Below, one piece after another: positions 273-55,060 of a DNA stretch of 64,000 nt. Both the position numbers and the translations under genes were made by a program. Under the pieces are notes generated by a model. The model was not told where the DNA came from, searched no databases, and was given only the letters and a program-made list of their open reading frames with translations. Within the stretch, counting starts at the first letter, position 1, and each line of letters begins with the position of its first letter. This stretch comes from Xestospongia bergquistia (lineage: Eukaryota > Porifera > Demospongiae > Haplosclerida > Petrosiidae), in contig OZ014416.1 in assembly GCA_963965975.1 (NCBI GenBank), forward strand, positions 5,952,001-6,016,000. The letters run 5' to 3'.

Positions 273-374
273 TATGAACGTACACCTGCACACTATGCTG
301 CAATGATGGGTCATACTGACACAGTAAAACTGTTAATTGAAATTGGACAAGCTGATGTTTGCAGTAAGGATAAA
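273..374 (+). CDS. Gene A exon: one ankyrin repeat
   Basis: A 102-nt phase-0 exon between a CTAG acceptor and a GTAAGT donor. It encodes 34 residues with the ankyrin core TPAHYAAMMGHTDTVKLLIE and ends DVCSKDK. One exon equal to one repeat, in phase 0, lets repeats be added or lost without changing frame. The next exon begins with a further repeat (DGNTLLHSACSFG), so this belongs to gene A. A closely similar exon of the same length occurs in gene B at 25218-25319. Confidence 0.85.
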
Positions 375-3300
375 GTAAGTCACAGTAATTGTATTACAAG
401 ACATATCATTGTACCAAATTATGACCAATGAAGTAAATGAAATTACTTCATTTGGTTAATGGTTAATAAATCAGGTTAATAAATCAATAAGACACATAAT
501 TTGAAGTGTATTACTGATTTAATAAGAAACCTGTACTCTACAACAACTGTTCTTTACCAGTTCTTGATTCTTTTAATATAATTTTTCAAAACATTTCAAT
601 AATAATAATGTTTAGTATTGATTAACTTAAGACAATAAGGGAACATGCAAAAAATTGGACTTTCATTATGTGACTTGTAACAAGACTAGTCTATATAATA
701 ACACAAGAACTTATAAATAATGTTCAAACTTTTTCTCTATTAGTCATGATACTATTAATCATAGCCATTTGTCTAACCAGTAGTGTAATACTATCATGTC
801 TGAGTCCTTACTTTGCTTGACCATTATTGCACTTCACTTAGTAACAAAAACATTTTATACAAATTTTGGTAGGAAAGCGTTTATTACCATAAATATTCCA
901 AATTTCTTGAAAACAATCCAAAGAGCATATATGTCACTTTATCATCAGTTACTAAGCAACAATTACTAAGTCATCATAGCAACATTTACTAAGAAAAAGA
1001 TATAGAATTTAGTGATTGTAGCCCTTCTATATTCTATACACATTTTGAGAGAAAACTGTTTATTGCCATAGTTATTCCAAATTTAATGAAATCAATGTCA
1101 AAATATACTATATCTTTAATTAATATGTATTCATCAATTTCTATAAAAGATTTATAAATTTCAAAAGCAATTGTACCAATGAAATCACAAAATAGAAGGA
1201 GTCATATAATAAGCAACAGCATATAATTTACTATTGCAACAGTATATAATGTCACCATAGTGACAATCACTATAGCAAAATCATTAATGTCACCATAGCA
1301 ACTGTTACTATAGCAAATAATAGTCACAATGGTTGTTATTAATGTTTATCAAATCCCATAACTTGCTATAAAAACAACATAATGGCAAGCCCATTCTAAC
1401 TATAGTGAGTAAATAGAGACATATTTGTCAACCATAGTGAATGCATATCAAAGTCACAGTTTACTTCAGTAAGAATTTTCAGTACTATGTTCCCATTGTT
1501 CTTATTAGCAACAATATATATATACTACAATATCATTGTACCAAATTATGACCAATGAATTAATTAAAATTACTTCATTTGCGGTTAATAAATCAATAAG
1601 ACACATGTTTTGATGTGTATTGCTGATTATTGAAACCTGCACTCTACAGCAACTGTTCTTTACCAGCTCATGATTATTTTAATATGTTTTTACCAAACAT
1701 TTCAATAATAATAATAGTAATGTGTATTATTGATGAATTTAATTAGCAAATGTGCTAAAATTGTACCATTATACCTTATGTTAACAACAAAAACATTTTA
1801 TAATCATTTTAGCAGAAACTGTTTATTGCCATAACTACTCCAAATTTCTTAGAAACAATGCCAAAAGTTTCTAGATGTTTAATTGTATGTATTCATCAAT
1901 CACCATGAAAATTTTGCAAAAGTTTCTTTAACCAAATGTACCCATTAAATAATAAAGTCCAAGGAATCATGTCATCATAGAAGAAAGCAACAGCACATAA
2001 TTTATTATAGCAAGAGCACATATGTCATCATAGCAACAGTTACTAAGCAAATGAAAGTTCATCACCATAACATGAATTACTCAGTAACAGCAAATATGTC
2101 GCCATAGCAACTGTTGCTATACCAATAACATATGAGTATAAACGACTATAGTATAACAAGAATAAACAATGTCATAGTTACCATAGCAACATTGCTATAG
2201 CAATTAGGTATGCATCTATCATGATAGCAATGATCTCCATGGTAACAGTTGTCATAACATCATTACCATAGCAACAACATATAGATATATTACTATATTA
2301 ATGTTACTTATAACACTGACAATTGAGCAAATTGTTGTTATAAGATGAAAATTATACCATTATGCTTTCATATGTTCAAAACTAATAAAATATTTAATTA
2401 ATGACCATTATTTAATTTCTATTCATAATTGGCAATTTTTGCAAAAAATAATTTGCTATGAAACGTTTAACATATAGTTACTGTGACCTTTTTATACATA
2501 TTTTGGCACAAAACAATTTATTGCCATAATTATTCAAGTTTTGTTGAAAACAATGCTAAAACATACCATCTCTTTAATTCATAATTATATATTCATCAAT
2601 CTCTATGAAAGATTTATAAATTTCAAAAGCAATTGTACCAATGAAATCACAAAATATAAGGAGTCATATAATAAGCAACAGCATATACTTCACTATATCC
2701 ATGGTATGTAATGTCACCATAGCAACAATCACTATAGCAACAGCATTCATTTTACCATAGCAACGGTACTATAGTGTCACGGTGTTTGTTATTAATGACT
2801 ATCAAATCCCACATAAAAATAACACAGTGGGAAGCCTATTCTAGCTATAGAGAGTAAAGAAAGCCTTTTTGTCAACCATAGTGAATACAAAAATACAAAT
2901 AGAAATAGACATGCACTGTTTGTACAAGGAAGTAACATATTAAAGTAAAGATTTTCAGCACTATGTTCTCAATGTTCTTATTAGCAATGAGATGTATGTA
3001 TAACATTATTTATTTTTCACATTACTATATTATAGTAATACAAATACAACATATTGTACACACAGTTGACTGTGAACTCACAAGCATTGTGAACTGTTGT
3101 ATAATATAAATAAATATATCACTGTTGATTGAGAGTATACTCATACAACAAAGTACATGTACATATAATGTTCCAAAGATATTCTTATATCATTTGTAAC
3201 TGTTGATCCCATAACCTGCTGTAAAAATAACACATAGATGAGAATGTTTCATATAGGGAGTGGAAAAATACTTCTTGTGAACCATATTGATTATAAAATA

Positions 3301-6300
3301 CAATACAAATACGTATACACTGTGTGGTACAAGCAAGTAACAAAATCATAGTTTACTTGCAATAACAAGTGTCAGTGCTACTACTTAGACATTTAAAAGG
3401 TGTTTGGTTGTCATAGTTACATTTGCTCCTATGATGATCTTGAAAGATTGATTCAGACCATTTAGTGAGACAGTTATACATACCACTGTTGTCTATCTCC
3501 ACTAGTCACTGCTATTTCAGATTTTACTGTTCCTAGAAAAGTGTTCTTTTCAACTTCTCTGACTCTTTTGAGTCAATGACACATAACCTCATAATGTCCC
3601 CATCTATAGCACTTTTACAAATACTTTCCTGTGCTAGACATACCAATCTGTTCTGACTAGAGGTGACTTTCCACACCTTGTACATTACTATACTATTAGA
3701 GTCCACTGATCCTTTCCTCTTGACTTTACTATGAAAATGAGTTCATGTCCCTCTTGATCTTTTTATTGACTGGGCAATACTTTTTTATGAAAAGTTTTTG
3801 AATCTTTTCCATGAACAATGGTCTGTTATTTTTAACAGGTTTACTTTGTGTAACTTCAATAATAGCTGTCTATAACTTGAGTTCAGCATCTAACTGTTTT
3901 GCTCTGACAGTTTACAAATCAAAATACTGACTAAAATCTGATCTCAAATCATCTCTTCTCTGAGATCACCATATGTCCAGTTTAGTATACATCTGTAACA
4001 TATTAACATCACAGTTTAGTTTGCAATAAAAATTCTCAGCACTATATCTCTTCGTTTGTATTAGCAAGTAAATGTTAATGATTCAGTAATGTCTCAATAC
4101 TTGTATGTACTAAAATATTTTTTCACAGTACTATGTATAGTAATATATATATAACATTGTAATACATATAGTTGACTGTTAACCCACAAGCAATGTGAAT
4201 TGTTGTATAATATAAATATATCATTGTTGACTATAAGTGTATTCATACTAACAAGGTACATGTACATATGATCTTCATAAGATATTGTTTTGTCATCTGT
4301 ACCTTGTAAGGTTGTGATTATTGTCTATTACATGAGCAGCTTGTTTGCTTGGAAGATAGGTTTCTTTTCTTGAAACTTTATTTAAGTAGTGTACATTTAT
4401 ATAATATAATATTATTATTAATGTCAGCCATTTGTTGAAGTACCAAGTCATGGTTTGTTCATTATTGCTGATATTTATAATAACATTGATAGTGTTTGTT
4501 TTGTTTATAAGATGATTATGATGAATAATAACAAACTATTATAATTAAAGTATGTTCACTTAGTTCACTATTACAAACATAGCATTGTGAAACAGAAATC
4601 ATGACAATCACCAGATTTATTAATCATATAATGATGCTTAAATTGGTAACTGGCCGTACATTTCACCTCTTTGTGTATCATTAAGTTAATGTGTTACAAA
4701 ATTGTATGTGTACTCATCAGTAGTAGATTGGGTAGCAGTTTATACCATTTCTTGAGTACTGTAATCATGTTTGTCAATACAACATAACGTTGTACCTTGT
4801 AATGTCTTACAAGTATTGTTGTTGTTACCATGGTGATAAATACAGGAGTTAAAAATTGGTGATAAGTTTTGAAAGATGGTTCACCATTTGCTGCATATTT
4901 TGCCATATATCTACTATAAGTATTTATATCAATAATTAATTCAATATTAATATTGGTTCTCTATTATGAATTAATAGTAATAATAATCTTAATATTACTG
5001 ATAACAATAATGAAATAAACTCTGTACCTTTGTTGCATACTTTGTAGTTCTTTGTGGCTACTGAGATGAAAAATCTCCAAAGATGTATCTGATATCTTTA
5101 ATTATACAATTATTACATCATCAGTGCTTTAGATACATATTTAATTGAAAAAATGGTTGTCTATGTTACATTTCAAAGTAAAATAAGAAAATTGAGTAAT
5201 CCTTAACAATTGCCACTTTCATCATTTATTCCTTAAATATATCTGATCAAATCTTTAATTTGGTTTCTTCACTTTGTTGGTTACTAGGAAGTGAACATAT
5301 AAACATATGTTGATTTGTACTTTATGCATATCAAAGTTATAACACTGGGGACTGCTTTAGATATGAAAACCTATTCAAACTTCCTATTAGACAAATTTTC
5401 TGGCTTTAGATAATGTCTGCTATAAATGTCAATACATTCACTACAAGTAGTGTTGTCTAGTGTTGTATTAGTTTAAGTATAACTAAAACTAAAATACATT
5501 TAGTTAGGAGGGTTATTTTGATTTTATTTAACTAACTATAACGAATTAAAATGAAATATTCTCAAAACTAACTATAACTAACTAAAACTGTTTGTACTTC
5601 TTTAATAACTTTTATAACTAACTAAAATATTTTCATGACTGAACTTACTAAAATAACTAAAATAACTCATTTTCTAAGACCTTAGAAGTTTTTACTGTTT
5701 AGCACATTTCCTTAAAAGTTAGTGATGCAGAACTATCTTATCTATAGACTGTACCATAATACTATGTACCGTAGTGTAATTGTTCTGTATAGATCATTTG
5801 TTGTGTATAGATTGCAGCTGCATGTTTGGACATTGCCATTCATTTCAATATGATCCACTAAATTTCTGGGTTGAAAATGAACTTTCATTTCATTTGCCCA
5901 CAATATTTTTGGAATCCCGGCGTCTTTTATGCCTGTTGAACGTGTATTTTCAAGGCAGGATATTATGTCCAGGGTAGAAGAAATTGACTTAGTGGATCAA
6001 GTTTGGAAAATTAAGTGTTTCTTAAAACAAATAAACAATATGTTTCCTAATATTACATTCTGAACTGTACAATGATTATTACCTAAATAGAATAGATTAT
6101 GCAGAAAAACTAATAAAAACTAAAACTACAAAACAATAACTATAACTATAAAACTAAACTGAAACTAGACGTGCAATAAACAACAACTATAACTAACTAA
6201 AATATTTTACTTGGACTAAAAAACTAACTAAAACTTAACTAAAACTAAATCTCATAACTAAAACAACATTAGTGTTGTCCCAAGATTAAGAATGATTATT

Positions 6301-9300
6301 TTAGGTGATATATGGAATATACTCAGAGCTGATTTATTCACATAACATTAATTTCATGTTCTGTTTTGCTATGAACACTGTTTGTGTGGACAATTAGGAT
6401 TAAAAGGAAAAAGAAAATAGAACCACATATTCACTAGATATTCCTCCAGATAATTATTCCTTTTAAGTCAAAATTTACACACAATGTCAGAACTTGTTTC
6501 CTTGAAGTGATCCTTTTGTGCAGCTGTTCCAGGTATATTGGTAATTTTTTCACTCTTCCTACATTTCATTTCAGTGAGGTCCTTAATAAAGGTGTGTTAC
6601 AGTATCACCACAAGGACATCGGTTATATGTGGTAATGTAGACATCTGTAGCCTAAGATAGGTTTTCTTTGAGTTTGCTAGTAGCCACTTAACCATGTACT
6701 AGATATGGCTTACATCATTTGCTCTGTTGATTCTAAGGAGTCAATTAGCTTTCTTTCTCCAATATCAAAATTATATAAACAGTTCTAATTTTTCATGTAC
6801 TGTGACATTATTAAACCAGCTACTTGATGAAGGGCATTTTAATGATCAGAATTTCTGGCTTCAAAAACACCTGCATTGAGTTCACCTGTTTGCTAGTCTT
6901 GTAAAGTTGTACGATGTCTGTAAAACAAATGCATACTTATTAAGTGTATTTGTTGTTAGAGATGGCACTGAAGACTAGGCATTGAATATTAATAATTAAT
7001 GAACCCAACATAGTGGCATCCTGTTAAAGTTCACAATATTAGAGCCATTCTTGTATTAAATATAATTTAGTCTATTGTAGAAGCTGCTGCTACAAAGAAG
7101 AGGATTGAAACATAATTGGAATGCTTTTCTGAAATGCCAAGATACATTTTTGCTACACATTTGTAGTTGGCAGGTGCTTCTTACAAGCAATGCAAACTTG
7201 AACCATTTTTACATATGAAAACTTCTTCATGTACTTAGTTTCAAGGTATTGTTCAATGTGAATTTAAGTGATATTATGCTTTACATCTTTGTTACCATCA
7301 AATGTAAAAATACCTGTATGTTGTCAACATCAGCCAAGACAATTCTAATGTTAACAAGCTCTTCTGTAACTACTCATATGTAAACTGGTGGATAGGTCCT
7401 TAGACTCTCTCTTACTATGTCTTCCCAAATTTTGGCTTTCCTTCTCTTTCCTTTATGCTTACCACTTTTCAAAATAAATTTTACTTTGTTGTGTGAGACT
7501 TTGTATCTACCTATGCTAAGGCATGAAACAGTGCTCTACAAGATCAAAGAGTATATTTATGGTAACAAGTTTAAATCATTATCAATACCTTATAGATACA
7601 CTGAGGTGTAGTTGACTTTGTTAATACAATTCATAGTCTTAAATCCACAGATACTATGAGTGATCTTTGATACAAATTTTGTATCTATACATCAACGTTA
7701 TTATTGAACTTATACCTGTGGTAATTTTTATTCAGTTAACTGACACCTATTAATATATTTGTCAGTTCATGTCAATTACCTCATGTTTGTGGCAATTTAA
7801 ATGCCTTTCAAAACATAATGGCTAGCCATTGATGTCTTACATTAATGTTATTTACATCCTTCACAATTTTTTTGTCTTAATGCTTGACTCTTACTATGCA
7901 GCTTGCTTTGCAAGTTATGATACTCAGTATTTTTTCATATTTTGGCCACCTAGTTTATGATGAATATTAATTTATATCACCATCCATTGAACTTTTCCAT
8001 GCCTGATATATCTAGTGCCACAACATTTTTTATAACATTAGAGGAAGTTATAGCAAACTCCAGCAAAAATTATTAATTAAGTATAAGAATTTAAATGTTC
8101 TATAGAAGCAATTTCCAAGATTTTTAAAGCTTTACTTTTACTGTCAAAGTACTCAAAATTAAAATAGATATTGCTGATGTAAAAGCATAATCATATTGGT
8201 ATGGTATAAAATTAATCATTACAAATGTTCAAATTTTATAATTATCATAGTTCAAACAAAATTAATTATGAAAAAAAGAAAAGAACATTGTGTCATATCT
8301 AAATAGACAATGCTGTTGACTACATGATGGTTGTTCTCAAAAACACAAAAGCAATTATGTAAAATTGACATTCATGTTAATTGACATGTGACCCTAAACA
8401 ATCCTAGGACCATCTGTTCATATGTAGTATGTCAGGTAATATAATTAAAACAAACTAGTCATGAAAGCAAGATACTTCCTCATATTAAAACAAATGACAA
8501 CACTAGCAGTCAATAGAAGTATGACTAATTAAAATAACATTATCTTTCAGTCATTATACTCTGTTTGTAACTGTTATATTATTGTCAATGATAAAGAAAT
8601 AGATAGAGGTAATTTGTGTTATTGATATTTTCAGTTTTAATATGTTAATATATTTCTCATCATTTTGCCAAGAATCTTGTATTCATGAGATATTAATAAT
8701 AATATAATTATAAAATACAATATTATAACAAATTATTTTGCTCCATGTTCTCATCTAGACCTATGTGTTATGTGTTTACTTCTTTCTCTAGGATGGCAAT
8801 ACTCTATTGCATTCTGCTTGCTCATTTGGTACCTTTACTTTCCAACAACATTCTACCTCCCCAACTGGTAGTAAGGACACAATACAATACCTGCTAAATG
8901 ATGTGAAGTTAAATCCACTGGCTGTAAACAATCGTCAACAAATACCATTAGAACGCATTTCACCAAATCTCAAAGACAGATTCCAATTACTAAAATTGTT
9001 TCAACCATTTCTTCAACATAATATAGAGTATCCAGTAGATTCATATGCCAAACTATTCCTTTGTGGAAAAACAAATGCTGGTAAAAGCTCTTTAGCTGCT
9101 GTTATATCTTATCGTGCTGACAAGGGACTACAATATGACTATAATCCAGAAGAATGTGTTGAAGGTGTTGTATTACATACCACTGGAATTGACTACCACA
9201 GCATTCGTAGTTGGGAAATAGGAAATGTTGTAATTTTTGATTTTGCCGGACATGCAGAATATTACAGTAGCCATGCTGCAGTATTGGAAACTCTTTTGTT

Positions 9301-12300
9301 GAGGTCACCAGCTGTCTTTGTAATTGTAACTAATCTTACTGATGAGAAAGAGATAATAAAGAGGGACCTGTACTTCTGGTTTAATTTTATTGAGAATGTT
9401 AGCACAAATTTAAGTAACCCCAGTCAAGTTATCATTGTTGGAAGCCATATTGATCTTTTGCCACATGGAAATGATTACGATTCTTTTATTAATGAAATTA
9501 CAAGTAGTGCCATTCGTGATCAAAATTATACTGGTTTCCTGGCAATGGACTGTCATAGACCAGGAGGTGAAGGTGTTGAAGAATTTATGACTAAACTAGA
9601 GAAGAGCTGTGAAGCTGTTATTGACAGAGAAGATAAAATAAGCTACCATTGTCATTGTCTACATTCTTTCCTTCAACAGCTTCAACTTGTTGCTATTAGT
9701 TTAGATGACCTCTGCTCAAGAATTGAGAATATGAATGAGCCATGTCTTTTGTCAGACCGATCAACTGTGTTGAAGTTCTTGACCATTCTTGGAAGAAAGG
9801 GTCTTGTCTTATTTTTAGAAGATTGGTTAATTATTGACAAAAAAACTCTGTTGACTGAAGTAAATGGCATTATTTTTAATGAAAGCATTGATCGTGTATG
9901 TAAACCCATTACCAGTAATACTGGTATCATGCCAGTGTCCACATTAGCTAAACTATTTCCCAACCACAATACAAAAATGCTAATTCGTTTCCTAATAAGT
10001 CTACAATTCTGTCACCAAATCAATTCTCGTTCTGTTAATAACATCGCAAACAATATACCATCTGAAGAGCCTCCTGTAAATGAAGATGTCAAATACTTAT
10101 TTTTTCCAGCACTTATTAAAGAAAACAGGCCATCACCACTCTTCAATACAACAAATGGATTTGGTTGGTGTTTATGGTGTCCAAATCCACAACAATTTCT
10201 ACCTATACGATTCCTTCATACACTACTTCATCACTTGGCCTATACTTGTTGTCTTCCTCCTGACAACACTGGTATTATTGAAACCAACATTAAAGTTGAG
10301 GAACTCTGTCGTAATTGTACTATGTGGAAAAATGGCATATACTGGAAAAACGAGAATGATATTGAAGTGATGGTGGAGGTTACTGAACACAATAGATGTG
10401 TTACAATTCTAGTTTCATACAGTAGTTCCTTGAAGAGTTATGAGATCCGGACATCTCTCATTAAACAAGTATTTAGTCTTAAGAACAAGATATGCTCGTG
10501 TGAAGTGGAGCAGTTTGTCATACCTCCTGGTAATGTAAATGATGTTATTGAGAAGGAACAGAGACACCGTATACTCTATTCCCTCCGTAAAGCAGCCCTA
10601 GGAGTTATTACCAAATGCCCTATTGGTGATGCAAACAGTAAAACTGCTACAAGTGTTGACGTCAGATCAGTTGTGGGTGAAAATGAACCGTATCTCTTCA
10701 TTGCCCCCATTGTCATTGAGGCTCTCTTTACTGACAGCAATAAGGACATACTCTTACCACATCACTACATCCAACATATAGAGAAAGCATGCAGGAAGAT
10801 GATACCAGTATCATCTGATCATTCTTATCTCTTAGTGAGGGAACGTCTCAACCGATTTAGCATTTTTACTGGCCGTAATCCTTTAGTAAGTCATTGTTTT
10901 TAGCAATGTTTTATTGTTTGGATTTTGTAAACAGACTATATCCTCTCGACCTATTAGAGATGAAGAGATACAACATCTATCTGATGATGCATTTTATATT
11001 ACAAAGAAAGGTAGGTCATCATATCTGTCTTACTTAACATTTACTTATTATTGTTTGTAGAATCTGTCACCACTAATCCTGATAAACAGACACAATTATC
11101 AAGTGTGCATGATGTATCACGTATGTTTGGTATTCATGTATCCATTACAATAAGTCATTATACTAGAGACATGTAATATGTTTACTATGCCTACCTGTTT
11201 TTAAGTATATTATATAAAGATTAGTATAGCTTTTAGCAGAAAGAACCACTTATATTGATAGATGTTATTCTGAGTTCTTATGTCCTGATTTATAACTTTT
11301 TACTATTGTGTGTGTTAGTTTTGGTTCATTGCTATAGTAATTTTAAAAACAGTAGCAATTGTTTTGTTTCCATGCTGCTGCTGTCAGAAATGTTTATCCA
11401 ACTTTTATTGTTTAATTAATACCATGTTACAGGTACACAAGACTTAAAGCAATCTACTGATGATTTTACTCATTTTCCTAAATTATGTAAGTTAATTGAG
11501 TCATTTTTTGATAATTGTTTAATTTAACTGTACATCTAGTTGTCAAACCTACTAGACGTGAAGTGTTACCTCATCTTGCCAGTATCAATGCTTCATGGTA
11601 TGAAATTGGAGATGGCCTTGGAGTGAAATATAATGACCTTGACGGTTTGGCTTAATCCAACCTCAAAAATCAAAGAAAACTTGGTGAAGTCATTCAAATA
11701 TGGATAGAGATGGATGGTAAAGATGATGGTGCTCCTGTGACATGGATCACAATTTTAGATGTTCTAAAGGGACCACTTGTTAAGAACAAAGCCCTAGCTA
11801 TGAAGATATACCAGTCATTACAAGAACAAAGTTCTAAAGAACAGATAGCTCCAAGTAAATATACTATAGACTCATGATGTTATACATAAATGTTTTAGAC
11901 ACAATGCAGTTAATTGTTGTGATGGTCATATTATTACAATTATAGAATTAATCTGCTCTGTAGGTCTTGTCTGACTTTAGTTACCATAACATTATTTATG
12001 CCTTTGTTTTTGTGACTAACAAAATGGTTAATATATTTTAGCAATTTTTAGTGAAATTTAACTCACATAGCAATTAGGATTGAATGTGTTATATTTTGCA
12101 ATTGCTCACATATCATATTATGTTTTAATGTATACTCTAGTTATAGTTAAAGGTTATGCAATTATTATCATATAATGCTTGTATGATGACTTTGTATAAG
12201 ACAAATTGTACATAACATGACAAATTTTATGATGTTCACTTTATATCCTATAGAACCTGTCAAGGAATCAGGTACTGCTAATACAACTGAAGGATATAAT

Positions 12301-13115
12301 ACTGACAACTTACTCATAGAACATCAGGTATGATTTATCTTATGTTATAGGTCATGTTAATGTTGGTCATTCACAAACTCAGTTGCTTAATGATAATTAT
12401 AATAGACAATGTTTACTTCATCAATCTTTCCTATTGTAAACATAAACATTATTTATGACATATTTATACTCTACTTAATAGCATCAATCCTCACAAGAGC
12501 TTTCAAATGAGCCAAAAGAAGAACCTCTCCCTAGTGACAGTACACACCAAGGTAATGTAAGACATATAAATAGTATCTACTGCATATAATATATATGATG
12601 ACATCTACTAATCAATTGTGCCGCCTACACAGTGTATGTTGTTATAGTTGGCATAGTGATATTAAGTAGTTTATTTATGTTAATAAATGTTGTTTGCTTG
12701 CTTATTTAGATCACAATTCACCAATTTTCTTTATATTTGCAAAGTAATTCAGTTACTTTTCCTTTTATTGTTATATTGTGTAGGCATACATGATCCTTCA
12801 GAAATATTTCTTGATTATTTTGCTGATATTTGTGATGCCATTGAAATTAAACCACTTGCCATTGTTAACCGACTCCTTACTGCTAGATTGATATCATCTA
12901 ATTTTAAAGAAGATATAGAAAGTATGAGTGGTGATAATTATGACAAAGCGAACAAAGTAGTTAATGAACTACAACGACAAATCAAGGAAAAAAGAACTGA
13001 ATGTTTAAAGGCTATCTGTGATTTCCTTTTGAACCAGAACCATACATTAAAAGACATTGGCATAAGAATGAAATGTCAACTAGAAAGTAAGAGATATTGT
13101 AAAACTCTAGTATGA
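273..13115 (+). CDS. Gene A: ankyrin-Roc GTPase-COR-like-Death-CARD-like protein (5' end outside window)
   Basis: Nine exons are visible: 273-374, 8792-10885, 10935-11010, 11061-11120, 11433-11486, 11540-11854, 12254-12327, 12482-12551 and 12784-13115. All have AG acceptors and GT donors, and every phase joins correctly, giving 3,177 nt (1,059 codons with the stop). Order: ankyrin repeats, Roc-type GTPase, COR-like region, Death domain, low-complexity linker, CARD-like helical domain. Known families with this layout (ROCO and NLR-like proteins) are cytoplasmic switches that recruit partners through death-fold contacts; that role here is inference. One oddity is an in-frame TAA at 11653-11655 inside the Death domain, which would remove the last 224 or so residues unless it is a sequence error, an allele or bypassed. 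The exons encoding the N terminus lie upstream of base 1. Confidence 0.8.
404..3000. repeat. Duplicated intron blocks with X-box-like motifs
   Basis: Within the first visible intron of gene A, one block (about 404-850, with a distinctive 'accaaattatgaccaatgaa' start) recurs at about 1530-1830. A second (about 1020-1470) recurs at about 2490-2990, sharing long runs around 'gaaagatttataaatttc'. The order A-B-A'-B' suggests one tandem duplication of a unit over 1 kb, since diverged. The blocks carry many copies of GTCACCATAGCAAC-type sequence. No coding potential seen. Confidence 0.7.
1289..2726. promoter_or_regulatory. Cluster of exact RFX X-box consensus sites
   Basis: The RFX-factor X-box consensus is GTNRCC-N(0-3)-RGYAAC. 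Exact matches lie at 1289-1302 (GTCACCATAGCAAC), 2098-2111 (GTCGCCATAGCAAC), 2177-2190 (GTTACCATAGCAAC) and 2713-2726 (GTCACCATAGCAAC). One-mismatch versions lie near 2024, 2262 and 2752. They sit in related repeat blocks and so are not independent. Regulatory function is inference. Confidence 0.4.
3010..4310. repeat. Direct repeat pair inside the gene A intron
   Basis: About 3010-3200 and 4115-4310 share an imperfect block containing 'gttgactgtgaactcacaag' (or close variants), 'gttgtataatataaata' and 'aaggtacatgtacata'. The sequence between is AT-rich and without genes. Confidence 0.6.
5458..6271 (+). mobile_element. hAT-family DNA transposon, degenerate, with 8-bp target duplication
   Basis: The ends are imperfect inverted repeats: TAGTGTTGTATTAGTT at the left, and TAATGTTGTTTTAGTT at the right read inward. 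The element is flanked by a perfect 8-bp direct repeat GTGTTGTC (5450-5457 and 6272-6279), the length hAT elements create. Subterminal regions are packed with AACTAAAACTA motifs. Inside, about 5843-6000 on the plus strand, lies a decayed hAT C-terminal dimerisation region: DPLNFWVENELSF, then in another frame NIFGIPAS and MPVERVFS. The rest of the transposase is missing, so the copy is non-autonomous. Confidence 0.85.
6280..8791. other. Intron sequence of gene A with no gene seen
   Basis: AT-rich sequence with only short open frames and no recognisable protein on either strand. It ends at the polypyrimidine tract and acceptor of the 8792 exon. Confidence 0.5.
8792..10885 (+). CDS. Gene A main exon: last ankyrin repeats, Roc GTPase, COR-like region
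   Basis: A single open exon of 2,094 nt (698 codons), phase 0 at both ends, donor GTAAGT at 10886. It opens with an ankyrin repeat (DGNTLLHSACSFG) and a second, weaker one. The G domain follows: Walker A CGKTNAGKSS (9062-9091), switch II DFAGH (9239-9253) and the base-recognition motif SHID (about 9443), which stands for the usual NKxD/TKxD and is typical of Roc-type GTPases. After about residue 220 comes a COR-like stretch with GRKGLVLFL and IDKKTLLTEVNGIIF. The C-terminal 300 residues match the equivalent exon of gene B throughout and end FTGRNPL. The intact frame over 2.1 kb argues for recent selection on the protein. Confidence 0.85.
10935..11486 (+). CDS. Gene A linker exons (three)
   Basis: Three short exons at 10935-11010 (76 nt), 11061-11120 (60 nt) and 11433-11486 (54 nt), each ending in phase 1. 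They encode a polar linker (RPIRDEEIQHLSDDAF, then SVTTNPDKQTQLSS, then TQDLKQSTDDFTHFPKL) joining the COR-like region to the Death domain. Two introns are only about 50 bp. There is no recognisable domain; they are called from splice sites and uninterrupted phase. Confidence 0.65.
11540..11854 (+). CDS. Gene A exon: Death domain with an in-frame TAA
   Basis: A 315-nt exon in phase 1 at both ends. It encodes a Death-type six-helix domain, with the helix 1-2 signature ASINASWYEIGDGLGVKY, then IQIWIEMDG and APVTWITILDVLKGP. It aligns with the Death exon of gene C (SAKWQEIGDLLGV, WLDNAPTPVTWHNII). TAA at 11653-11655 sits where gene C has TSNLSNQ, so the parental codon was probably a sense codon such as CAA. 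The frame continues cleanly on both sides and in the following exons, so this is the only visible lesion in gene A. Confidence 0.75.
12254..12551 (+). CDS. Gene A linker exons before the CARD-like domain (two)
   Basis: Exons 12254-12327 (74 nt, leaving phase 0) and 12482-12551 (70 nt, leaving phase 1) encode a Glu/Ser/Thr/Asn-rich linker (KPVKESGTANTTEGYNTDN, then QSSQELSNEPKEEPLPSDST). The second has the same length and phases as the 70-nt exon 51544-51613 that precedes the CARD-like exon of gene D, so the two share exon structure by descent. Confidence 0.6.
12784..13115 (+). CDS. Gene A last exon: CARD-like death-fold domain
   Basis: A terminal exon of 332 nt encoding about 110 residues and ending with TGA. 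The helical pattern is CARD-like: DPSEIFLDYFADICDAIE, then PLAIVNRLLTARLISSNF, YDKANKVVNELQRQI, and LKAICDFLLNQNHTLKDIG. Paralogous copies occur in gene B (16937-17229) and gene D (51097-51404), with the PSxIF start and LKDIG end kept in all three. CARDs act by homotypic pairing, so A, B and D products could interact. The domain call is by pattern only; a DED or other death fold is possible. Confidence 0.7.
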
Positions 13116-13419
13116 CTGACAGTTATTTTACAGTATAATATTATAATACATTTATTATGTAATGTAATTGCTTGTTTTAAATGATATTATACTCAACCAA
13201 CCTACTGTTTTTTTCTTTTTACTGCAGGCTTAACTCCACCTACTAATTAGTTGCAGTCCCTCCTTCCCTTCCTTTAATTTCACATTAGTTTATATATTTC
13301 ATTATTATAGTTAAGTTTGTTTTTACACTTTAATTGTCTTTAATTTACCATTAGTTTTTTTCCTTTGTGATTGCTACTATTTTCTGAAGTAAATTGCTAA
13401 ATTTATAGTGCTATTTATT

Positions 13420-16930: not shown

Positions 16931-16936
16931 CATCAT

Positions 16937-20795: not shown

Positions 20796-21160
20796 CTAAC
20801 AAATCAGAAAGATCAGAATCATAAGTGATGACAAAGTATATGTATATACAGACTAACTATAATAAGAAAGCTATCGTTTACTACGCAATGTCCTTAGATA
20901 TGCACTCAGATATCTATATCAAACCTTTTAGAGTTGAATAAATTGAAGGCGATCTTTTGCAACTTCTATAATCTCATCCTGTATTAAATGTGTACTTGAT
21001 AGAACCTTAATTTTAATAAAAATATATATATTGAAATAATGAGTACAAGGATAATGTGTTAAGTTATTAATTGATTGTGTTCACATATAAATATGTATAA
21101 GCTCATTTATCATATAATAACGAAGATATATATTAGGTTTAATATAGTATTGTAACTTAC

Positions 21161-33804: not shown

Positions 33805-33812
33805 GTCAGTGC

Positions 33813-41017: not shown

Positions 41018-44000
41018 ATGGAAGATTTGATGAAGCGTGCAAAATTTTTGTTCTACATATCTTTCATTTCATTGTTTGCGCCAAACTATGTACCAAGTCC
41101 TGTGGTAGTCATTTCTAATATTACTAGCTACTTAAATAGCTTTGACGCCATTTGTTCTGTTATCTTCTCATCAATTTCTTTGATCCTATTTATATCAATT
41201 GTTATTGGAGTGCTCAGTAGAACATCTACTAGGGATTTGTGTATATATGGTCCAATATTCTTTGCCATGACGTGTCTTATATTACTGATCACTTTATCAA
41301 GATTACCAGTTGGTGGAGATGGTATTCGATATGGCCTACTTTTTTCTATGATTGGATTTTTACTTTTGGCATTTCTATTTGGACTTTTTGGTGAATTAGT
41401 TAAATATGCAAGAGTAAAGCTATGGAAAAAAACTACAAATACAGGTGTATTATATTAATTTTATTGTATTAACTAACTTCTGTCTACACCATCACTTAAT
41501 ATATATATATACATTTCATTAAAGTCACACCTTCCAAGATTATAACTTTAGAGTTCAATTGTAAAATTTCAGTTGATAGTGTTCATGTCAGACAGTACTA
41601 AAAGTAACAGTTCACAATACTTAAGTGACAAATTATTCCCTTTGGAAAGACTAAAGTAAATCTAGCCTCTTCTTTTTATTGTATTTTGTAATGCTAATAC
41701 TATTCAGTGCAGTTAACTTTCCATGTCTGAAAACCTGACTTGATAATCTGTTAGTCAATTAACAATTGTTCATTACTTTTGTTTTCCTCTCCTTTTATAG
41801 AATCTAAGAATGAACATGATTTGTTTGACATCTACATAACACAATTAAAGAAAAAAGGATCATTAAAAGTAAATATTATCCAATGTATGACTGTTGGTCC
41901 ACCTACTGTTGGTAAAACCACAAATACAAAAAGAAAAAAAGACCAGTAGTAAGAAGAGTTAAACATCGACCCCCTAGTACTCCAGTTTGTGAGAGTGTAA
42001 TGAAAATTGAAGTAACATTAAATGACAATAAACAATCGTATTCTACATTTACAGTAGATAATTACACTTGGAAATCTCTCACATTAGATGAAGAATTCAT
42101 TGCGCGTTTAAAAAGGTTATCATCAAAGGATGTGATAGATAGTGATGATATAATAATGCCTCTTTCTGTGTTAGTTATGATCATGTACATAGTTATTGTT
42201 GTAGCACCTCTAGCTGATATTTATGAGCAAGAAAGAATGTTGATCAGTGAAGACAACGACAACATACAAATTTTAAGAACATTATCAATTATTGTCTTTA
42301 TTTTAGGTAGCCTTTTATTTTTCCTTTTTGGAATTTTTTTTTGGTTAAAAGGTCAATGTTCACGATGGATCAAGTCAACCAAAATTAATCTCATTAGTGC
42401 AGAGACTGTAGCTAAAGAATCTCTTCAAAGGAATGATATACAAAAAATCCAGCCTGTATTAGATCAAAATTTTAATATCTATTTCACAGATTGTGGAGGA
42501 CAGCCAGAATTTCATGAGGTGCTTCCTGCACTAGTGTCGCATTCAACCTTGTTCTTTTTTGTCTTCAACCTTACTGGAGGTCTTGATAATCGATACAAAG
42601 TCACTTATAAAACCAATGATGGTAATGTATCTGTTCCATATGAGAGTAGTTTCACAGTTAAAAAAGCTCTTTTACAATCTCTAGCTAGTATTAGCTCAAT
42701 TGGAAAGTACTTTAAACCGAGCACAACCATTATGTATAAAATTGAGTCATTTATAAAGCTACTTTCTAAGAAAGTCACTCAGTTCTTTAAAGAAAGTCTG
42801 AAATTGCCTATTTCAAAAGTAATAATAATTGGCACACACAAAGATGAGCTTTTATTAACAGGACAAACTGACGATAAAATTTTGCAGATCAACGATCAAT
42901 TAGAAGATGAGCTTAAAGGCACTGACTGGTACTCACAAGATATGGTTATACCAACTGAAAGTGGTATGGTTCTTCTTGGAATTAACTCATTCAATTCAAA
43001 CGATATAAAACTACTTAAACGTATGGTTATTAAGGTTGGTTTAAATGGTGATTATCAAGTAAAGATACCTGTGCCATGGTTAGCACTAGACTTTTGTATT
43101 CGAAAATTGGAAAAAAAGGTGATGTCTCTGAAGGACTGTCAAGATCTTGCTCTTGACTGTAACATTTCTCTTGGAGATGAGTTCAATGCAGCACTGTGGT
43201 TCCTTCACAATAAAGTAGGAACAATAAGATATTTCAATATCATACCTGAACTGAAGGATGTAGTTATTACTGACCCTCAGGTACTCTTTGATATTGTAAC
43301 AGACATTATTGTGAATACATTTTCCTTTGGCAAACGTATTCATAAGAAAAGTGAACATGACAGGTTTCGTTTATCAGGCCGTTTTACAAAGTATCATTTA
43401 GAGCAGTGTAAAGTTGTTAAAGATAACTTATTATCAGTAGAACAAGTAATAGCTGTTCTAGGACATCTTGTTATCATTGCTCCTGTAGGTATAAATGAGT
43501 CTAATGAACAGGAATACTTTCTCCCTTGTGTTTTAGTACATGCTTCTCTTCCATCTACTCCATTATCACAAAGTGATTGTGACATTCCTCCTCTTCTTAT
43601 TACATTCAAATGTCACTACACTCCAAGAGGTATCTTTAGTTCACTCATCGCGAAAATTCTTCTTGATGGTAAAGACAAGTGGGAACTCTCGTCAGAAAAA
43701 ATTTTCAGAGATCAAATTGAATTTAATCTTATTAAGTCAGGACATATTGTCACTATCACCAATTTCTTTAGGTTTCTTGAGATTGTTGTAAAATCTCCTC
43801 GTGGCTTTTGTGCAAGAAGTGATGAAAATGTTTATGTCTCTGTCAAACATTATATTTCTCGTTGTCTAACTTATGTGAAGAATCAGCTTAATTATACAGC
43901 TACTGCAGACCATTTCTTTGGGTTTTATTGTAAGGAACATAAGAACAGTTCTATAGAAAGTCATCCTGCTATATGTAATAATGACTGTCCTAAATATACA

Positions 44001-44097
44001 ACATGCAGTCGTAAAAGAAGCCTTAAAGCATACCTATTACCTCAAGAGCAGCTATGGTTTAATGAAAAAAGTGAGTTTGCCCTATGCATAGATTTAT

Positions 44098-44131: not shown

Positions 44132-44770
44132 TATAATAGAAACAACTATTTTCACCCTAAACTACACATTAACTTTGTAACAGATATTATATATGTGTGT
44201 GCTTTAAATAATTTAACTTTATGAATATTAACCCTTTATTATTTATTGTAAATTATAGTTTCTGCCACTGGAGTTGATTTACTATTACTTGAAGGTATGA
44301 ATATATAATAATATAGATAAAATATGTAATATTTATCATTTGTATACCCATCCTAGCTACAAAACCAGAAAAACACACATTGGTGATGTTACTTACTTCT
44401 GTCAGTGCAAAGTGGCAGGAGATTGGTGATCTACTTGGAGTAGATTCTGATATTATTGAGGGATTACATACTTCAAACTTATCTAACCAAGTTAAGATGT
44501 CTAAGATATTACAGAGCTGGTTGGATAATGCACCCACTCCAGTGACATGGCATAACATAATCAGTGTCTTAGAGGGACCACTAAAGGAGAAATCAATAGC
44601 TATTAAGATTCGCAATACTCTTGCAAGTATGTATAATAATGGCTGTATCACAATTATATATCATTTCATGAATATATATATCATTGAATTAAATGCATTG
44701 ATACTTGATACAATACCATACAATTCACACCATATTGTTTTGTTTTTTAGATTATGACAGAAACCACTAA
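41018..44770 (+). CDS. Gene C: multi-span membrane Roc-COR-Death protein with one frame change
   Basis: Exons 41018-41444, 41801-44070, 44259-44294, 44357-44626 and 44751-44770, with GT-AG borders and consistent phases. Exon 1 encodes about four hydrophobic segments (residues about 8-26, 45-67, 74-93, 104-127). Exon 2 gives Walker A GPPTVGKTT (41896-41922), two more hydrophobic segments, switch II DCGGQPEF, THKD (about 42834-42845), a COR-like region (DVVITDPQVLFDIVTDI) and a Cys/His-rich end. The Death domain follows. The coding total is 3,023 nt, one short of a multiple of three. The frame is lost in an A-rich run at about 41926-41942 (TAG at 41947 in the first frame), while the second frame reads PVVRRVKHRPPSTPVCES onwards. 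It is either a sequencing slip or a real lesion. An AATAAA lies about 520 bp after the stop. Confidence 0.7.
44100..44125. repeat. (TA)n microsatellite
   Basis: About 12 TA units lie in the intron after the main exon of gene C. Confidence 0.9.
44357..44626 (+). CDS. Gene C exon: Death domain
   Basis: A 270-nt exon in phase 1 at both ends. It encodes LLTSVSAKWQEIGDLLGVDS, IIEGLHTSNLSNQVKMSKIL and QSWLDNAPTPVTWHNIISVL, then EGPLKEKSIAIKIRNTLA. The W-x-x-I-G-x-x-L-G-V signature and the late TW pair are typical Death-domain positions and match the gene A exon 11540-11854. No lesion is seen here. Confidence 0.8.
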
Positions 44771-45587: not shown

Positions 45588-47160
45588 TCATATATTATGT
45601 AGACTAGTATACGATTCAGTATACGCATCTTTTTTGTTGTTGGTAGTCATCCCAGGAGTTGATGTAGTACATATCGACGTACCAGGAGTGGATGCACGCA
45701 TTGTGTGGGTTGGGTGTGGCTCGTGCGCTCTGTTTTGGAGCGTGAGGTAAGTTTGAGGTATGGGACCCTGCTCTCTATTGACAGTACCCTTATGATAGTG
45801 AATATGCCAAGATTCCAGGATGCATCTTTGCATAAGGTATGGGTGGCGGGCTAGGATGGTGGGTTTATCCCAGTTGATCTTGTGGCCCTTATGCCAAGCA
45901 TGTTCTGCTAGAGCATTGGTGGATATATTCTGTTGCTTTACTGCTCTTTTGTGTTCTCTAATGCGTTGTTGTAAACTTCGCCCTGTCTGGCCGACATAAG
46001 AAGAACTACACTCTTGGCAAGATATGTTATATACCACTCCTGTTTGTGAAAAAATAGATGTAGGATCCTTAGGCCTAGATATCATTTTTCTTAGAGTAGT
46101 AAGAGGTCTAAAGATTACTTGTATATCCAGATATCTTAGGATCCTCCTGATGGCTTCTGACTGTCCTTGCACATAAGGGATGGTTACCCTGATTGGAGGG
46201 GGACTGTCAGTGATGGTGGAGTTGGACACCAATGATGGGTTGGGTCTCTTCTGTTGTACTTTCTTGCGACAATCCATGATGATTGCGTTGGGATAACCAT
46301 TATTACGTAGAGCCTTTATAATACGAGTCTCCTCGTCAGCTTGTTGTACAAGGCTGGAGGAATGTGTAGAAGCTCTAGTGAATAATGTGCTAGCAACAGA
46401 CTGCTTATGGGAGGAGGGGTGGTGAGAAGAATACTGCAGGTATTGATCAGTGTGAGTTTTCTTTTGATAGACAGATGAACATAGGGTTCCATCATCATTT
46501 CTAATGACTAAAACATCTAAAAATGGGAGGCAGCCGTTTTCTTCTATCTCAACAGTGAATTGTATGGACGGTTCTATGGAGTTAAGATGTTTGTGAAAAC
46601 GATCAATAACACTTGCTGGTAATGCTGTGAAGGTGTCATCAACATATCCTTTCCAAAATAAAGGCTGGTAATCAAAGGATGATAAGGCTCTCTGTTCAAC
46701 ATTTTCCATCACCATATTTGCTACGGTTACAGAAACAGGAGAGCTCATTGCTGTACCGAAAATTTGCTTATAGTACTTGCCCCTGAATGAGAAATAGGTG
46801 GCATCTAAGCAGAATTCCAATAAGTAAATGATATTGTCGATTGAAAGAGTTGTCCTATTTGCTAGGTTAGTATCTTCTTCCAATCTTTACCTGCCCACTT
46901 GGATTGCTAGTTTAGTTGGAACTTTGGTGAAAAGGGAAACAACATCGAAAGATACCATGATCTCATTCTCCAATTGGTGTGATGTAACAAAGGTCACAAA
47001 GTCACTGGAATTTTTTATATGCGAGATGCTGTTTCCAACCAAGGGAGATAGGATAAGAGAGAGATGTTTTGATAAATGGTAAGTGGGAGAAGAATAGAAG
47101 GAGACTATAGGTCTTAACGGAGCATCAAGTTTGTGTATTTTGGGAGGCCATATATCTGTG
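45588..47160 (-). mobile_element. Penelope-like retroelement: reverse transcriptase plus GIY-YIG endonuclease, broken
   Basis: Read right to left. Reverse-transcriptase blocks include PPKIHKLDAPLRPIVSFY, SPTYHLSKHLSL and SFDVVSLFTKVP near 46930-47150, then an open stretch of 431 codons (45588-46883) with the catalytic box YVDDTF. A GIY-YIG endonuclease at its C terminus reads GVVYNISCQECSSSYVGQTG, followed by a basic RIREHKRAV helix. RT joined to GIY-YIG is the defining layout of Penelope-like elements. The N-terminal part of the RT is not present. The 3' end abuts a microsatellite. The copy is broken; the long remaining frame suggests it is fairly young. Confidence 0.85.
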
Positions 47161-47210: not shown

Positions 47211-48288
47211 TCATTCTTCTTTACTAGTGTTAATAAAAAGGAATTCATCCTTGTTTGAAGAGCGGGAGAGGGATCCTTCTACTTTAGTGTGCACAATGCC
47301 TTTGTTGTCCATAAATTCTTTAAATTCACAACTAGAAAATGATATACCATTATCAGAAACCACCTTGTCAGGAATTTCAAAATTTGAAAACAAATGTCGG
47401 AGTTTCTCTATCATCTCTACTGATGACATCGACTTTACGGACATCGCATCTATCAATTATGAGTAAGTGTCCATCACAATTAACAGTGTGACCAAAAACT
47501 GGACCTGCATGGTCAACATAAATTCAGCTCCAAGGGTTTGTTGGATACTCCCTCAGATGTAATGGTGCTGGTGCTGGAGAGTTCCTATTAGATTGACATA
47601 CATGACACTCCCTTACCTTCCTTACACTCCCTCACCTTCCTTTCAAGGTCAGAGTATTTTGCAATGAGTGTTGTTAACTCTTCCTTCACTTGGACCTGAT
47701 TTATCATGTGCCAGTCCAGTTTCAACTCATCAACCATTCTCTTCCGAGTAGGTTAGGTCCTTCAGACTCTACAAAAAGTAATGCTAATTTCTCTTCATCC
47801 CCTTGATGGTTCACTAAGAACCATAGATTTTAATCATACCTCCGGTATATGTCTTTCAAATTTATTCCTGCCCCACGTAATGGCGGTCTACTCATTGGGC
47901 TCCATAGCCTCTTGTACTCAGTGTCTGTCATCACTGACATTGACGCTCCTGTGTCAATCTCCATCTCAATGTCTTTGCCATTAATATTAACAACTGTCTT
48001 TAATGGTTTCGTCTTACTTGAGGGTAACATATACACTTGAGAAATAAGGTCTTCCACCACCTCATGAATGTTCATACTTGACTTGCTTGGCCTCCTTTGT
48101 GCATTCCTACAACATCTGACCAGGTGTCCCTTCTTGTTACAACCATGACAAACAGAGTCTTTAAATCTGCAACTTGGTGCTAAGTGGTTTACTTCAGTAG
48201 GAAGTTTGCCAATATGCCAAAATAAACTAAAAGTTGTGTCAAACAATTCTGTGATGACTTGAGATAGAGTCTCAGAGATATAGAACAA
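47211..48288 (-). mobile_element. Ty3/Gypsy-type LTR retrotransposon fossil, broken and fragmentary
   Basis: Pieces in retrotransposon order on the minus strand. A Gag-type zinc knuckle (CHGCNKKGHLVRCC, about 48105-48165) is followed by an aspartic protease site (MEIDTGASMSVM, about 47930-47970) and part of an integrase core (KVVSDNGISFSS, about 47300-47360). At about 1.1 kb it is far shorter than a whole element. No LTR pair was identified. It is clearly broken, with several breaks, and adjoins the Penelope-like element at about 47.2 kb. A moderate to old age fits its state. Confidence 0.75.
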
Positions 48289-48298
48289 CCTTTAATAC

Positions 48299-48495: not shown

Positions 48496-48499
48496 TCAA

Positions 48500-51096: not shown

Positions 51097-54000
51097 TTAG
51101 AACCTCTTACTTTCTAGTTGGTGTTTTATTTCCATACCAATGTCTTTTAACTGATTCTGCTTTAGAAAAAAATCACAGATGGATTTTAAAGACTCAATTC
51201 CCTTGTCAATAACCTGTTGTTCTAGCTCATCAACTACTTTGTCTGCTTTGTTATAATCATTAATATGTTGTAAATCTATCTTAAAATCGAGTGATATAAA
51301 ATTAGCAGAATAGAGCCGGTTAATAATGGGGAGGGGTTCAACTTCAATGGCTTCACAAATATCAACATAATATTTTCGAAAAATTTGGGATGGCTCAAAA
51401 TTACCTATACAATATAACAAGAAAAGGAAATGTAACTGAGTTGAAGAATAGTAAAAAAATGCCAAAGACAAGTAATGAATTAATGTATCTTAACATCACA
51501 TGGTATCAGTAATCAAATACAACTACTTATGTCAACATTTTACCTGGCTGTGTAGTATCACCAGTGTGAGTATCTATTTTGTTTTCATTTGATCGTTTAT
51601 CAGTATAATGTTCCTAGGACAAGTGATGATATATGAGGTGTAAAGTATTTTAGGTCGACAATGTAAGTATTGTTGATGTAACAATTGTTTATGTTATTGC
51701 TAAGACTAGAGTTGAGGAATTATATATAATTGTGATTTGCAATCATTGTCACAAAGTGAAACTATCAATCTATCATTTTTAATTTAGGAATGCTTCTCAG
51801 AACTAACTCAAAGAATGCTTCATTAATGTGGCTACACATATATAATGATTTGATTGCTCAGTTAAGTTAGTAACAGGCACCACTTGCTTAAGGCAAGAAA
51901 ATACTTTTTGTACTATTGGAGCAAATGACTGAGATATATTTTCTTGTCTGTGACTACACCAAATGCTCTTTTAACATTAAGCTAGTAAGCATCTGGACAA
52001 GAGACTCGTTTGAGGTAATGCAAATAGTGAGGATAGCTCCTGATTACTGAAAGAAACTATATTATTATTCACTAACATAATGAGTTATTGAGTAATTATT
52101 GAATAACTGCTATTGATCCTAATATATTATTAAATAGTGGCTCTATAATTATACATAAGTTTTCAAGATATACTTGATTATCAATCTATAGCAAGGTACA
52201 GAAATAATTATATTTTTATCACCTTTTGATTATTAATATACTTAAAAGTTGCCTACAAGTAGTAGATTTTCTTCTTGTTGAATAATATTGAAATAAACAG
52301 TGTAGCATTTATGCAAGGAAATACAATAGTTTTGTTTTAATAAAAACTGTGCCTATATAATCTGGCAGATAATGTAATACTTCAATGTAAAATTAATACT
52401 ATGTCCTACACTCTAAACATAAATCTTGGAACAAAACTATATTAATTTTGCATTAAAGTATGGCATTTTTCCTCCAAGCATTAAATTAAACATCAACAAG
52501 ACGATTAAGGATACCATTATAAGTAACAATACCAGTCACTTGTAATTCAAATAATCTAGTATCATAAGATAATCACAATAAATTGTAACACATGTATGAT
52601 AAAAGTCATTTTAAAATTAAAAAGAAATATAAGAGTTGCAGTATCAAAAAAATTACTTAAACAATGCAAAGATGTAGTAATTCTACATAACTAGTTCACT
52701 GATAAAATGATCATGATACTTTAACATATGAATTTGTCATGTCAGTTTCATACACTCTGTATATTAACAGGTTGTTCAATATGTTTACTGAGTTTTAGAA
52801 AACATGGATTTGCTAAAAATATGTATGTACAGACTTGTGATACACTGAAAGTACCTCTATATAAGTACTCACTAGGAAACACCATTAAATTAAATGCTTA
52901 TATACTTAATGTATTAGCACACATTACATATCTAATATATAGCCATATTATGGATAGAATTGAATTTAAATGGATTGATGATTATTTGTATAGTTCAAAT
53001 CGGAGTCATTAGTCTTGACAACTAATGAACAAATATGAGGATACTATTATGTGTGCATGTACACTATAGATACGTTTAGGTGTCGTATTCATTACTACAT
53101 AAGTAATGAATGGCATGAAATAACAATTGATATGTTAAAACAACACTACACTATATGCAGTGTAATCTTACTCATTTTTAATATAAACTAAGGATAATCT
53201 AACTTTGTCACTCTAATAAATAGAGTAGCAATCCCTACATAAATAATTTATGTAGAGATTGCTACATTCCTACATTGTTTCAATAATTTTTGGTATTGCC
53301 ATTCATACATATTCTTAAAATGATTTTTATCAAACTTGTTTCCATTTTTCTGTTGCTACTGTTTATTTCACATGTGATATGACAAATAATAGTATTAACT
53401 GGTCACTATTCAAGTATTAATGTGAGTACTAGGAACATATAGAGACAGGTCCATACAATGATAGTAGATATGACCATTGTTTACATTTCAAATAGTATTT
53501 ACCATGTGGTAATGAGCATGGTCAGTTATAAATTAATAAATATTAGTGTGAATAAACATTAGAGATAATCGTATAAAATATCACTCAACTAAAAAGCTAC
53601 AGTTTGTAAGAAAGTCTAACTTCATGAACAGTTTGAGTTATATATGAAGAAGCTGTGTATATGTTAGTATAGGAGAAAAGAAGAGGAACAATTTTGTTGA
53701 TTAGATAGTTCTCATTTCTCCATTTAGAGACTGACTTACTAGATATATAAGATCCAATAGATTGTAAAAATAAATAATGAGCAAGTAGGTGCTGAAAAAA
53801 CATATGAGTCAACTTTAACAGTTATTTGAATGTAACATGTTGTAATAGATTGAATGTGGCAGTCATTTTTTCTGTCCACATTTCGACATATTAAGTAGTA
53901 CTATGCTTAATAATAATATGTAATATATTGATTGTACACTAACTTGTATAGTATACTGTATTATTTAGCAATAAACTTACAATTTCATCGTGCTCTCTCT

Positions 54001-55060
54001 TTGAAAATTGAGCTCCCATTACCAGGATAGGGTTGGTACTACTAATTTGATCTCTAAACATTAAATATAAATATAGTTATACTATAATGTACATATATCA
54101 GTTATACTATAATGTCTTATATGTATAACGTCATATAATACTAGGAATATGTGGGGATGCACAAGGTTTGCCTTGTCCAGTGATAGTTTAGATTTAATGA
54201 AAAATGTGACTTTTATCTTTTTTTAGTCTGTCCAGGATAAAGTAAGTTTTTGTAAGCATTTGTAGAACCGTGGGTATGCAAAAGCACATGATCAGCTATG
54301 TTCACAGTAAAGATGTTTTCTAGATGTTTAGCAATGAAATAAACTTGAAAAAAGGAAAAAACAGACATATTAAAAACAACTAATTAAAAGATGTCTATAA
54401 GACGTCTAAAGCAGTGTGAAGATCAAATAAGATCAAAGACTAAGTTAGAAACAAGGTAAACAAAAATTATGCCAGTAAAACAATTATCACATTTCTAAGT
54501 GTGACTGAACCATGTGTTGAAACTAATGTGCTAGATTAGTTCCCTCGTGCTTAGAATAAACTACATGTTCTTTATTTATTGTCGTTGTAAAACCATATAC
54601 AACATGATCATGACAACATCATGTGAAGCAAAATAATTTAAAATGAAACAAATAAATGGACTATCATTTTAAAAAATAACAGTTAATAATGCAAATTTCA
54701 CACCTTGAAAACAAATGGATATAGTATAAGCTTATACAGCCTTAACTCTACATGATTTGTAACTGTTGTAAACATTGTATTGCTGCCAAAATTAGCTAAA
54801 AATATGCTAAGTTATACAGAGATGTACTTCCTCTCCAGCGTATCCACTCAGACGTTTACAGAAATAAAACATTGATCTCGTGTATGTAGTCACAAAGTAA
54901 ACACTGTAATACTGCAAGCATTAATATAATATAGGACTCATATTATCCACACACAGTACTACTGATTAATTTGTACTTTATATTACTTACCAAGGCTATG
55001 TCACTGGTACACCGAGTCTCTTTCTTGCTGGGAGAGAACAACTACACGACCAAAAATATT
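51097..55060 (-). CDS. Gene D: CARD-only protein with myristoylation-type N terminus
   Basis: Coding exons 53981-54019, 51544-51613 and 51097-51404 (39+70+308 nt = 138 codons plus stop), all with GT-AG borders and matching phases. An untranslated first exon with donor GTAAGT ends at 54991 and starts near 55060. The next exon has its acceptor at 54054 and the ATG at 54017-54019. The protein starts MGAQFSKREHDEI, which fits the N-myristoylation pattern MGxxxS. A polar linker (HYTDKRSNENKIDTHTGDTT) follows, then the CARD-like domain PSQIFRKYYVDICEAIEVEP, PIINRLYSANFISLDF, YNKADKVVDELEQQV, LKSICDFFLKQNQLKDIG. Homologous to the gene A C terminus, including the 70-nt linker exon. No lesion seen. 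It could instead be the 3' end of gene E, but the separate start favours an independent gene. Confidence 0.6.
53225..53265. other. 41-bp near-perfect palindrome
   Basis: Left arm 53225-53244 (gtagcaatccctacataaat) and right arm 53246-53265 are reverse complements with one mismatch and a 1-nt centre. It lies in the long intron of gene D. It could be the core of a MITE or a hairpin. Confidence 0.7.

Follow-up and report, generated by a model that had tools for sequence, protein, structure and literature searches.

The 64-kb window analysed here, positions 5952001-6016000 of contig OZ014416.1 (C6) in the genome of the sponge Xestospongia bergquistia (146.5 Mb, 21 contigs), is probably the interior of an array in which two expanded gene families of Roco type turn over fast. 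On this explanation, which we hold with reasonable though not full confidence as a whole, the local ankyrin-Roc-Death-CARD gene (A), two further copies of it (A' and A'') and a membrane Roc-COR-Death gene (C) are broken, a small CARD gene (D) is a shortened offshoot of the A family, and the intact members of both families are GTP-controlled death-fold switches. An earlier note on this DNA had proposed that A, C and D could be a linked signalling cluster of receptor, membrane partner and adaptor.

The A-type family and its member in the window

The 703-residue frame of the A Roc exon was found at 63 scored places including itself, out of 239 candidates; this, like all genome-wide copy counts given below for Roc, Death, the A Roc exon, the CARD exon and C, is a minimum value. 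The 62 other matches align over at least 674 residues at 47-89% identity, which puts the resemblance far above chance. Most of the 63 (47) lie on C6 and the remainder on contigs C1, C3, C7 and C13, while the A CARD exon was matched at 150 or more scored places (219 candidates), with identity down to 32%.

In 28 of the 30 A-type loci read, window A among them, the Roc exon is free of stops before its donor, and the P-loop pattern is present in all 30. The Pfam Roc profile matches 12 of 12 members, the D and G of the DxxG motif being invariant in every one, and COR-B is matched in four of these 12, weakly (best 0.0051). For the A Roc exon, the ratio of replacement to synonymous substitution rates (dN/dS) was 0.32-0.46 against 14 close paralogs and 0.22-0.24 against four distant ones, values in which a few codons upstream of the exon may have been counted. 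Judged by these comparisons, the A-type Roc exon elsewhere is mostly intact and under purifying selection, as expected of working death-fold receptors with a nucleoside triphosphate (NTP) switch, and the window copy, still open, resembles that of a constrained gene.

Within the window, all the domains previously ascribed to A were found (Table 1), and the splice phases fit from the Roc exon through Death and from the late linkers into the CARD exon, but a stop lies inside Death. Among the loci in which Death was matched, A alone has this TAA: in the 22 others the corresponding residue is Glu (13 loci), Gln (six), Lys (two) or Tyr (one). No Pfam Death match was obtained with the piece of A downstream of it. 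The Roc exon scores 1.9e-5 against Pfam Roc (25.3 bits, slightly below the cut-off of 27) and has no Pfam COR match. No kinase match was found in the three plus-strand frames of positions 1-8792, the 5' part of A possibly being outside the window, where further A exons may lie. As had been noticed from the letters, the stretch also carries degraded copies of such genes, A' and A''. Since A, A', A'' and C are all broken copies, A and C cannot be the working receptor and membrane partner that the earlier note made of them.

The Death exon was located in 23 of the 30 A-type loci, window A counted. In the other seven no Death match was found in the flank examined, and three of these (L027, L036 and L039) have a CARD exon; because the distance from the Roc exon to this CARD exon is about 270-290 bases in L027 and L039, Death seems to have been lost from some A-type copies.

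The membrane Roc-COR-Death family

The description of C as a membrane Roc-Death gene stands in part: COR-A, a weak Death match and hydrophobic helices are there, but the reading frame is lost right after the P-loop, where 17 bases lead to the next conserved stretch in place of the 51 in loci L056-L058. That C is a Roc protein without a P-loop was considered and rejected, the P-loop being present in another frame. In L056-L060 (C6 at 5.44, 6.11 and 7.05-7.09 Mb) the P-loop region is in frame with the rest, with GE in place of GK in the P-loop of L059; a relative of the first exon of C is present in L056-L058, with none found in L059 or L060.

In the C-type genes read, Roc does not run as one piece: between G1 and G3 it is interrupted by an insert of about 150 residues that contains two predicted membrane helices. 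Positions 3-30 of the Roc profile correspond to residues 30-57 of L056 and positions 31-88 to residues 211-265 of L057, no single C-type member having given both halves in the best-stretch table. In Rab-like, non-Roco domains (four of the eight Roc-profile loci matched, two of them the same gene) the P-loop and DxxG are 39-40 residues apart. By hydropathy, the insert has a pair of hydrophobic segments of 19 residues each, in the window copy as well as in all five loci, four of which are distinct; among L056-L060 its sequence is poorly conserved and its hydrophobicity is kept. The insert segment was matched at 21 places, all on C6, in 17 cases over its entire or almost entire length, and none of the C relatives off C6, among the matches listed, aligned before query residue 144. 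COR-A was matched in four of four C relatives scanned (6.2e-8 to 5.1e-6), these and the window match all falling under the curated cut-off of 35.3 bits. A structure model of the C open frame reached a predicted local distance difference test (pLDDT) score of no more than 35.9.

Tentatively, and at somewhat short of an even chance, we propose that an intact C-type protein is a membrane-embedded GTPase whose Roc domain passes through the membrane, with a hairpin between P-loop/switch I and G3, so that tension, lipid or a far-side ligand could set the GTP switch, read out by COR and Death; together with the A-type family it would form a GTPase-based counterpart of NLRs. We know of no Roco protein whose GTPase domain is split by a membrane hairpin, and a search of titles and abstract starts, with most subscription journals outside its coverage, found neither a hairpin-split Roc nor an ankyrin-Roc-COR-Death-CARD family. 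The proposed arrangement is directly testable in the intact relatives.

Because both families cluster on C6, the linkage of A, C and D is expected and does not support the proposed functional cluster.

By analogy with Roco proteins and NLRs, intact members of the two families would most likely be GTP-controlled switches. In A-type proteins, ankyrin repeats are followed by a Roc GTPase and its COR-like region, Death and a C-terminal CARD, and C-type proteins are predicted multi-pass membrane Roc-COR-Death proteins. A signal sensed by the ankyrin repeats or by the membrane part would cause Roc-COR to shift state or oligomerise; Death and CARD would become exposed, recruit partners like-with-like and seed an assembly, and the output may be cell death or an inflammation-like response, and the genes may have an immune role.

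D, a probable short relative of the A-type genes

We infer that the D of the earlier note, which gave no coordinates per gene, is the minus-strand model 55060-51100. In the window copy, good splice sites allow its four exons to be connected in frame. The CARD exon is 53-56% identical to that of A, which agrees with the proposed CARD-like protein, but D is bounded by A-type terminal exons and is not an unrelated gene. Counting itself, its first coding exon is found in related form at 33 places in the genome, and seven of these belong to D-like units (at least 94% identity). For 11 of the remaining 26, a scored A-type Roc exon on the same strand follows within 15 kb downstream, and for 15 it does so within 25 kb, a pairing that is a minimum since 63 of 239 Roc candidates were scored; 11 have no scored A-type Roc exon within 25 kb. 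For random C6 places the figures are 12% (15 kb) and 19% (25 kb). With its first and last exons related to the first and last coding exons of A-type genes, D looks like an A-family derivative that kept these two and lost the middle, rather than an independent adaptor.

The lipid-anchor start proposed for D is not supported either. Glycine at position 2 is present in all five D copies read and absent from the three A-type first exons read, which start MAAQ, MTAQ and MSTQ; the Met-Gly start expected of N-myristoylated proteins is thus not kept across the family, Gly having been seen in D alone among these first exons. One of the five D copies also runs out of frame through the middle exon. The 52-base length of that exon in four copies arises via gaps at three different places and the 53-base copy loses the frame, a pattern that may reflect either frame-keeping or chance. 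When the five copies are compared in pairs, the CARD exon diverges by 0.017 on average, the introns by 0.021-0.031 and the first coding exon by 0.031. In five of the ten copy pairs there are at least as many replacement codons as synonymous codons; synonymous codons are ahead in four and one pair is identical. As evidence for a working D this is weak and mixed.

Two other gene models were rejected. D is not a mere 3' exon of A'', as the putative untranslated exon and the first coding exon intervene, in an order kept in four other copies, and its first coding exon cannot be spliced straight to the CARD exon because the phases mismatch. At locus L064 (C6:6492700-6499900) a D unit is joined head to head to a sequence whose window counterpart lies 5' of the A Roc exon (7008-8431), a joint that shows rearrangement inside the array.

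Table 1. Exons and gene remnants of A, A', A'', C and D in the window
Feature	Positions	Strand	Basis or remark
A, ankyrin-repeat exon, one repeat	273-374	+	Pfam Ank 1.7e-6, residues 93-124 of frame 3 (279-374); acceptor present
A, large open exon: ankyrin repeat, Roc GTPase, COR-like region; P-loop GKTNAGKS	8792-10885	+	Pfam Roc
A, three linker exons, phases agree	10935-11010, 11061-11120, 11433-11486	+	exon-by-exon reading
A, Death exon, in-frame TAA at 11653-11655	11540-11854	+	exon reading
A, two linker exons	12254-12327, 12482-12551	+	exon reading
A, last exon, CARD-fold domain	12784-13115	+	exon reading, structure model, profile comparison
A', CARD-fold exon, TAG and TAA close to 3' part	16916-17221	-	sequence reading
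A', Death exon, open	20521-20811	-	Pfam Death 0.031
A', ankyrin-Roc-COR-like exon, broken by frame changes	21152-23238	-	pieces in different frames
C, first exon, three predicted membrane helices	41018-41455	+	helix prediction
C, first part of second exon with P-loop GPPTVGKTT, not in frame with following part	41800-41922	+	frame reading
C, open frame: membrane hairpin, G3 DCGGQPEF, G4 GTHKD, COR-A	41916-44096	+	COR-A 7.8e-6; helices
C, Death exon	44350-44622	+	Pfam Death 0.019; matches A and A' Death queries
D, last exon, CARD-fold	51100-51404	-	open in 5/5 copies read
D, small middle exon, doubtful	53740-53791	-	52 bases in 4/5 copies, 53 in one
D, first coding exon MGAQFSKREHDEI	53981-54019	-	33 related places in genome including itself
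D, putative untranslated first exon, donor gtaagtaat	54991-55060	-	donor kept in 5/5 D copies read
A'', remnants of COR-like region and Death exon	55675-56920	-	sequence matches

CARD and Death assignments

For these families, the profile searches that had been suggested gave Roc, COR-A and weak Death matches and no Pfam CARD match over the cut-off. Pfam CARD had no match in the A and D exons; the third copy of this exon in the window reached 0.021 (15.3 bits against a cut-off of 23.9), one of ten family members gave a match (0.017, under the cut-off), and a search of PDB sequences with the CARD profile returned nine matches, none of them a CARD. A structure model and a profile comparison support the six-helix CARD fold for the C-terminal domain of A-type genes and D, so that the earlier note's proposal of a CARD fold, which a structure prediction could have overturned, came through; on sequence alone the assignment is doubtful. 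Pfam Death finds 19 of 21 members when E-values up to 1 are admitted (best 0.00023), and the window matches in C and A' are both under the cut-off. No NACHT or LRR match was found by Pfam in the window pieces scanned, and a weak nSTAND3 match was seen in A' (0.019, under the cut-off). Genome-wide, death folds are common: 983 Death candidates appeared at first look, of which the best 150 were scored, and Pfam CARD gave 13 matches out of 34 candidates. The Roc profile has at least 152 matches (452 candidates, 150 scored).

Alternative explanations

It could be argued that A, C and D are after all a working linked sensor-adaptor cluster, in which a lipid-anchored D serves A at a membrane as its CARD adaptor or decoy. 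The in-frame joining of the D exons, the CARD exon that is open in every copy and less diverged than the introns, the CARD fold and the glycine kept in the D copies all fit such a cluster; the stop in A Death and the lost frame of C do not, nor do the A-type first exons that lack the glycine, the D copy whose 53-base middle exon breaks the frame, and the spacing and orientation of C and D, which vary among copies. We consider this cluster very improbable. It is less far-fetched, though still unlikely, that D yields a real truncated A-family product that damps or seeds A-type CARD signalling, with no need of a lipid anchor. Small CARD-only proteins such as ICEBERG have a comparable role, the nearby CARD exon is stop-free in six of the seven D-like units (with stops in one), and synonymous changes exceed replacements in four of the ten D pairs. 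Against this, an open exon counts for little in units duplicated as recently as those of D, and in the remaining pairs replacements are at least as frequent (five) or the two copies are unchanged (one).

The entire window, D included, may instead be non-functional debris of a birth-and-death array with no local role, which we regard as a serious possibility falling a little below an even one. All of A, A', A'' and C are broken, and the sequence between the copies includes a GIY-YIG frame, part of a gag protease and long tandem repeats; however, the A Roc exon remains open, as do the CARD exons in A and D, and some truncated receptors work as decoys. As the machinery in the window is broken, birth-and-death turnover within the two-family array that we favour gives the best account of the neighbourhood.

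Comparison with known systems

The domain order of DAPK1 is ankyrin-Roc-COR-Death, with an N-terminal protein kinase. A-type proteins have the same order of ankyrin, Roc, COR-like region and Death as DAPK1-type Roco proteins (a comparison of domain order, not of sequence), but add a C-terminal CARD, exist in dozens of copies and give no kinase match in the window part of A.

The expanded intracellular immune receptors of sponges have been described mainly via NACHT ATPases, with 126 bona fide NLRs (NACHT-LRR proteins with Death or CARD) in Dysidea avara (PMC12909245). Those NLRs and the A-type proteins are both expanded NTP switches with death-fold signalling domains, whereas the A-type has a Roc GTPase for the NACHT ATPase, ankyrin repeats for LRRs, and death folds that are C-terminal. 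A Roc, Death and CARD family that is large, clustered and fast-turning would represent NLR-like receptor logic on a different switch. The TRADD-N expansion of Amphimedon, 357 proteins mostly with Death-like domains and most commonly ending in ankyrin repeats or SH3-LRR, is likewise huge and mixes death folds with ankyrin repeats, but it is TRADD-N based, and the excerpt available does not describe Roc-COR fused to Death and CARD (PMC8195603).

Outside sponges, the brown-algal LRR-ROCO proteins, which are candidate immune receptors, are Roco-type as are the window families, but have an LRR sensor and, in the portion of the source consulted, no described death fold (PMC11378527). Actiniarian and Aplysia fusions of Roc/COR with TIR, kinase or Death also join Roc/COR to innate-immune domains in invertebrates; the combinations in the available extracts involve TIR, kinase and LRR, and neither a CARD fusion nor a membrane hairpin in the GTPase domain is described there (PMC5094078, PMC9334734).

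Mobile elements and repeats

An open frame of 184 residues at 33283-33834 (minus strand) had no significant Pfam or PDB match. By Pfam, a GIY-YIG frame lies at 45591-46886 (minus strand), which we take to be probably a Penelope-type element, and a fragment of a gag-type aspartic protease at 47833-48291 (minus strand). Tandem arrays stand between the gene copies at 13414-14958 and 28993-31111, with units of about 133 and 145/278 bases. These transposon remains and arrays are consistent with birth-and-death turnover.
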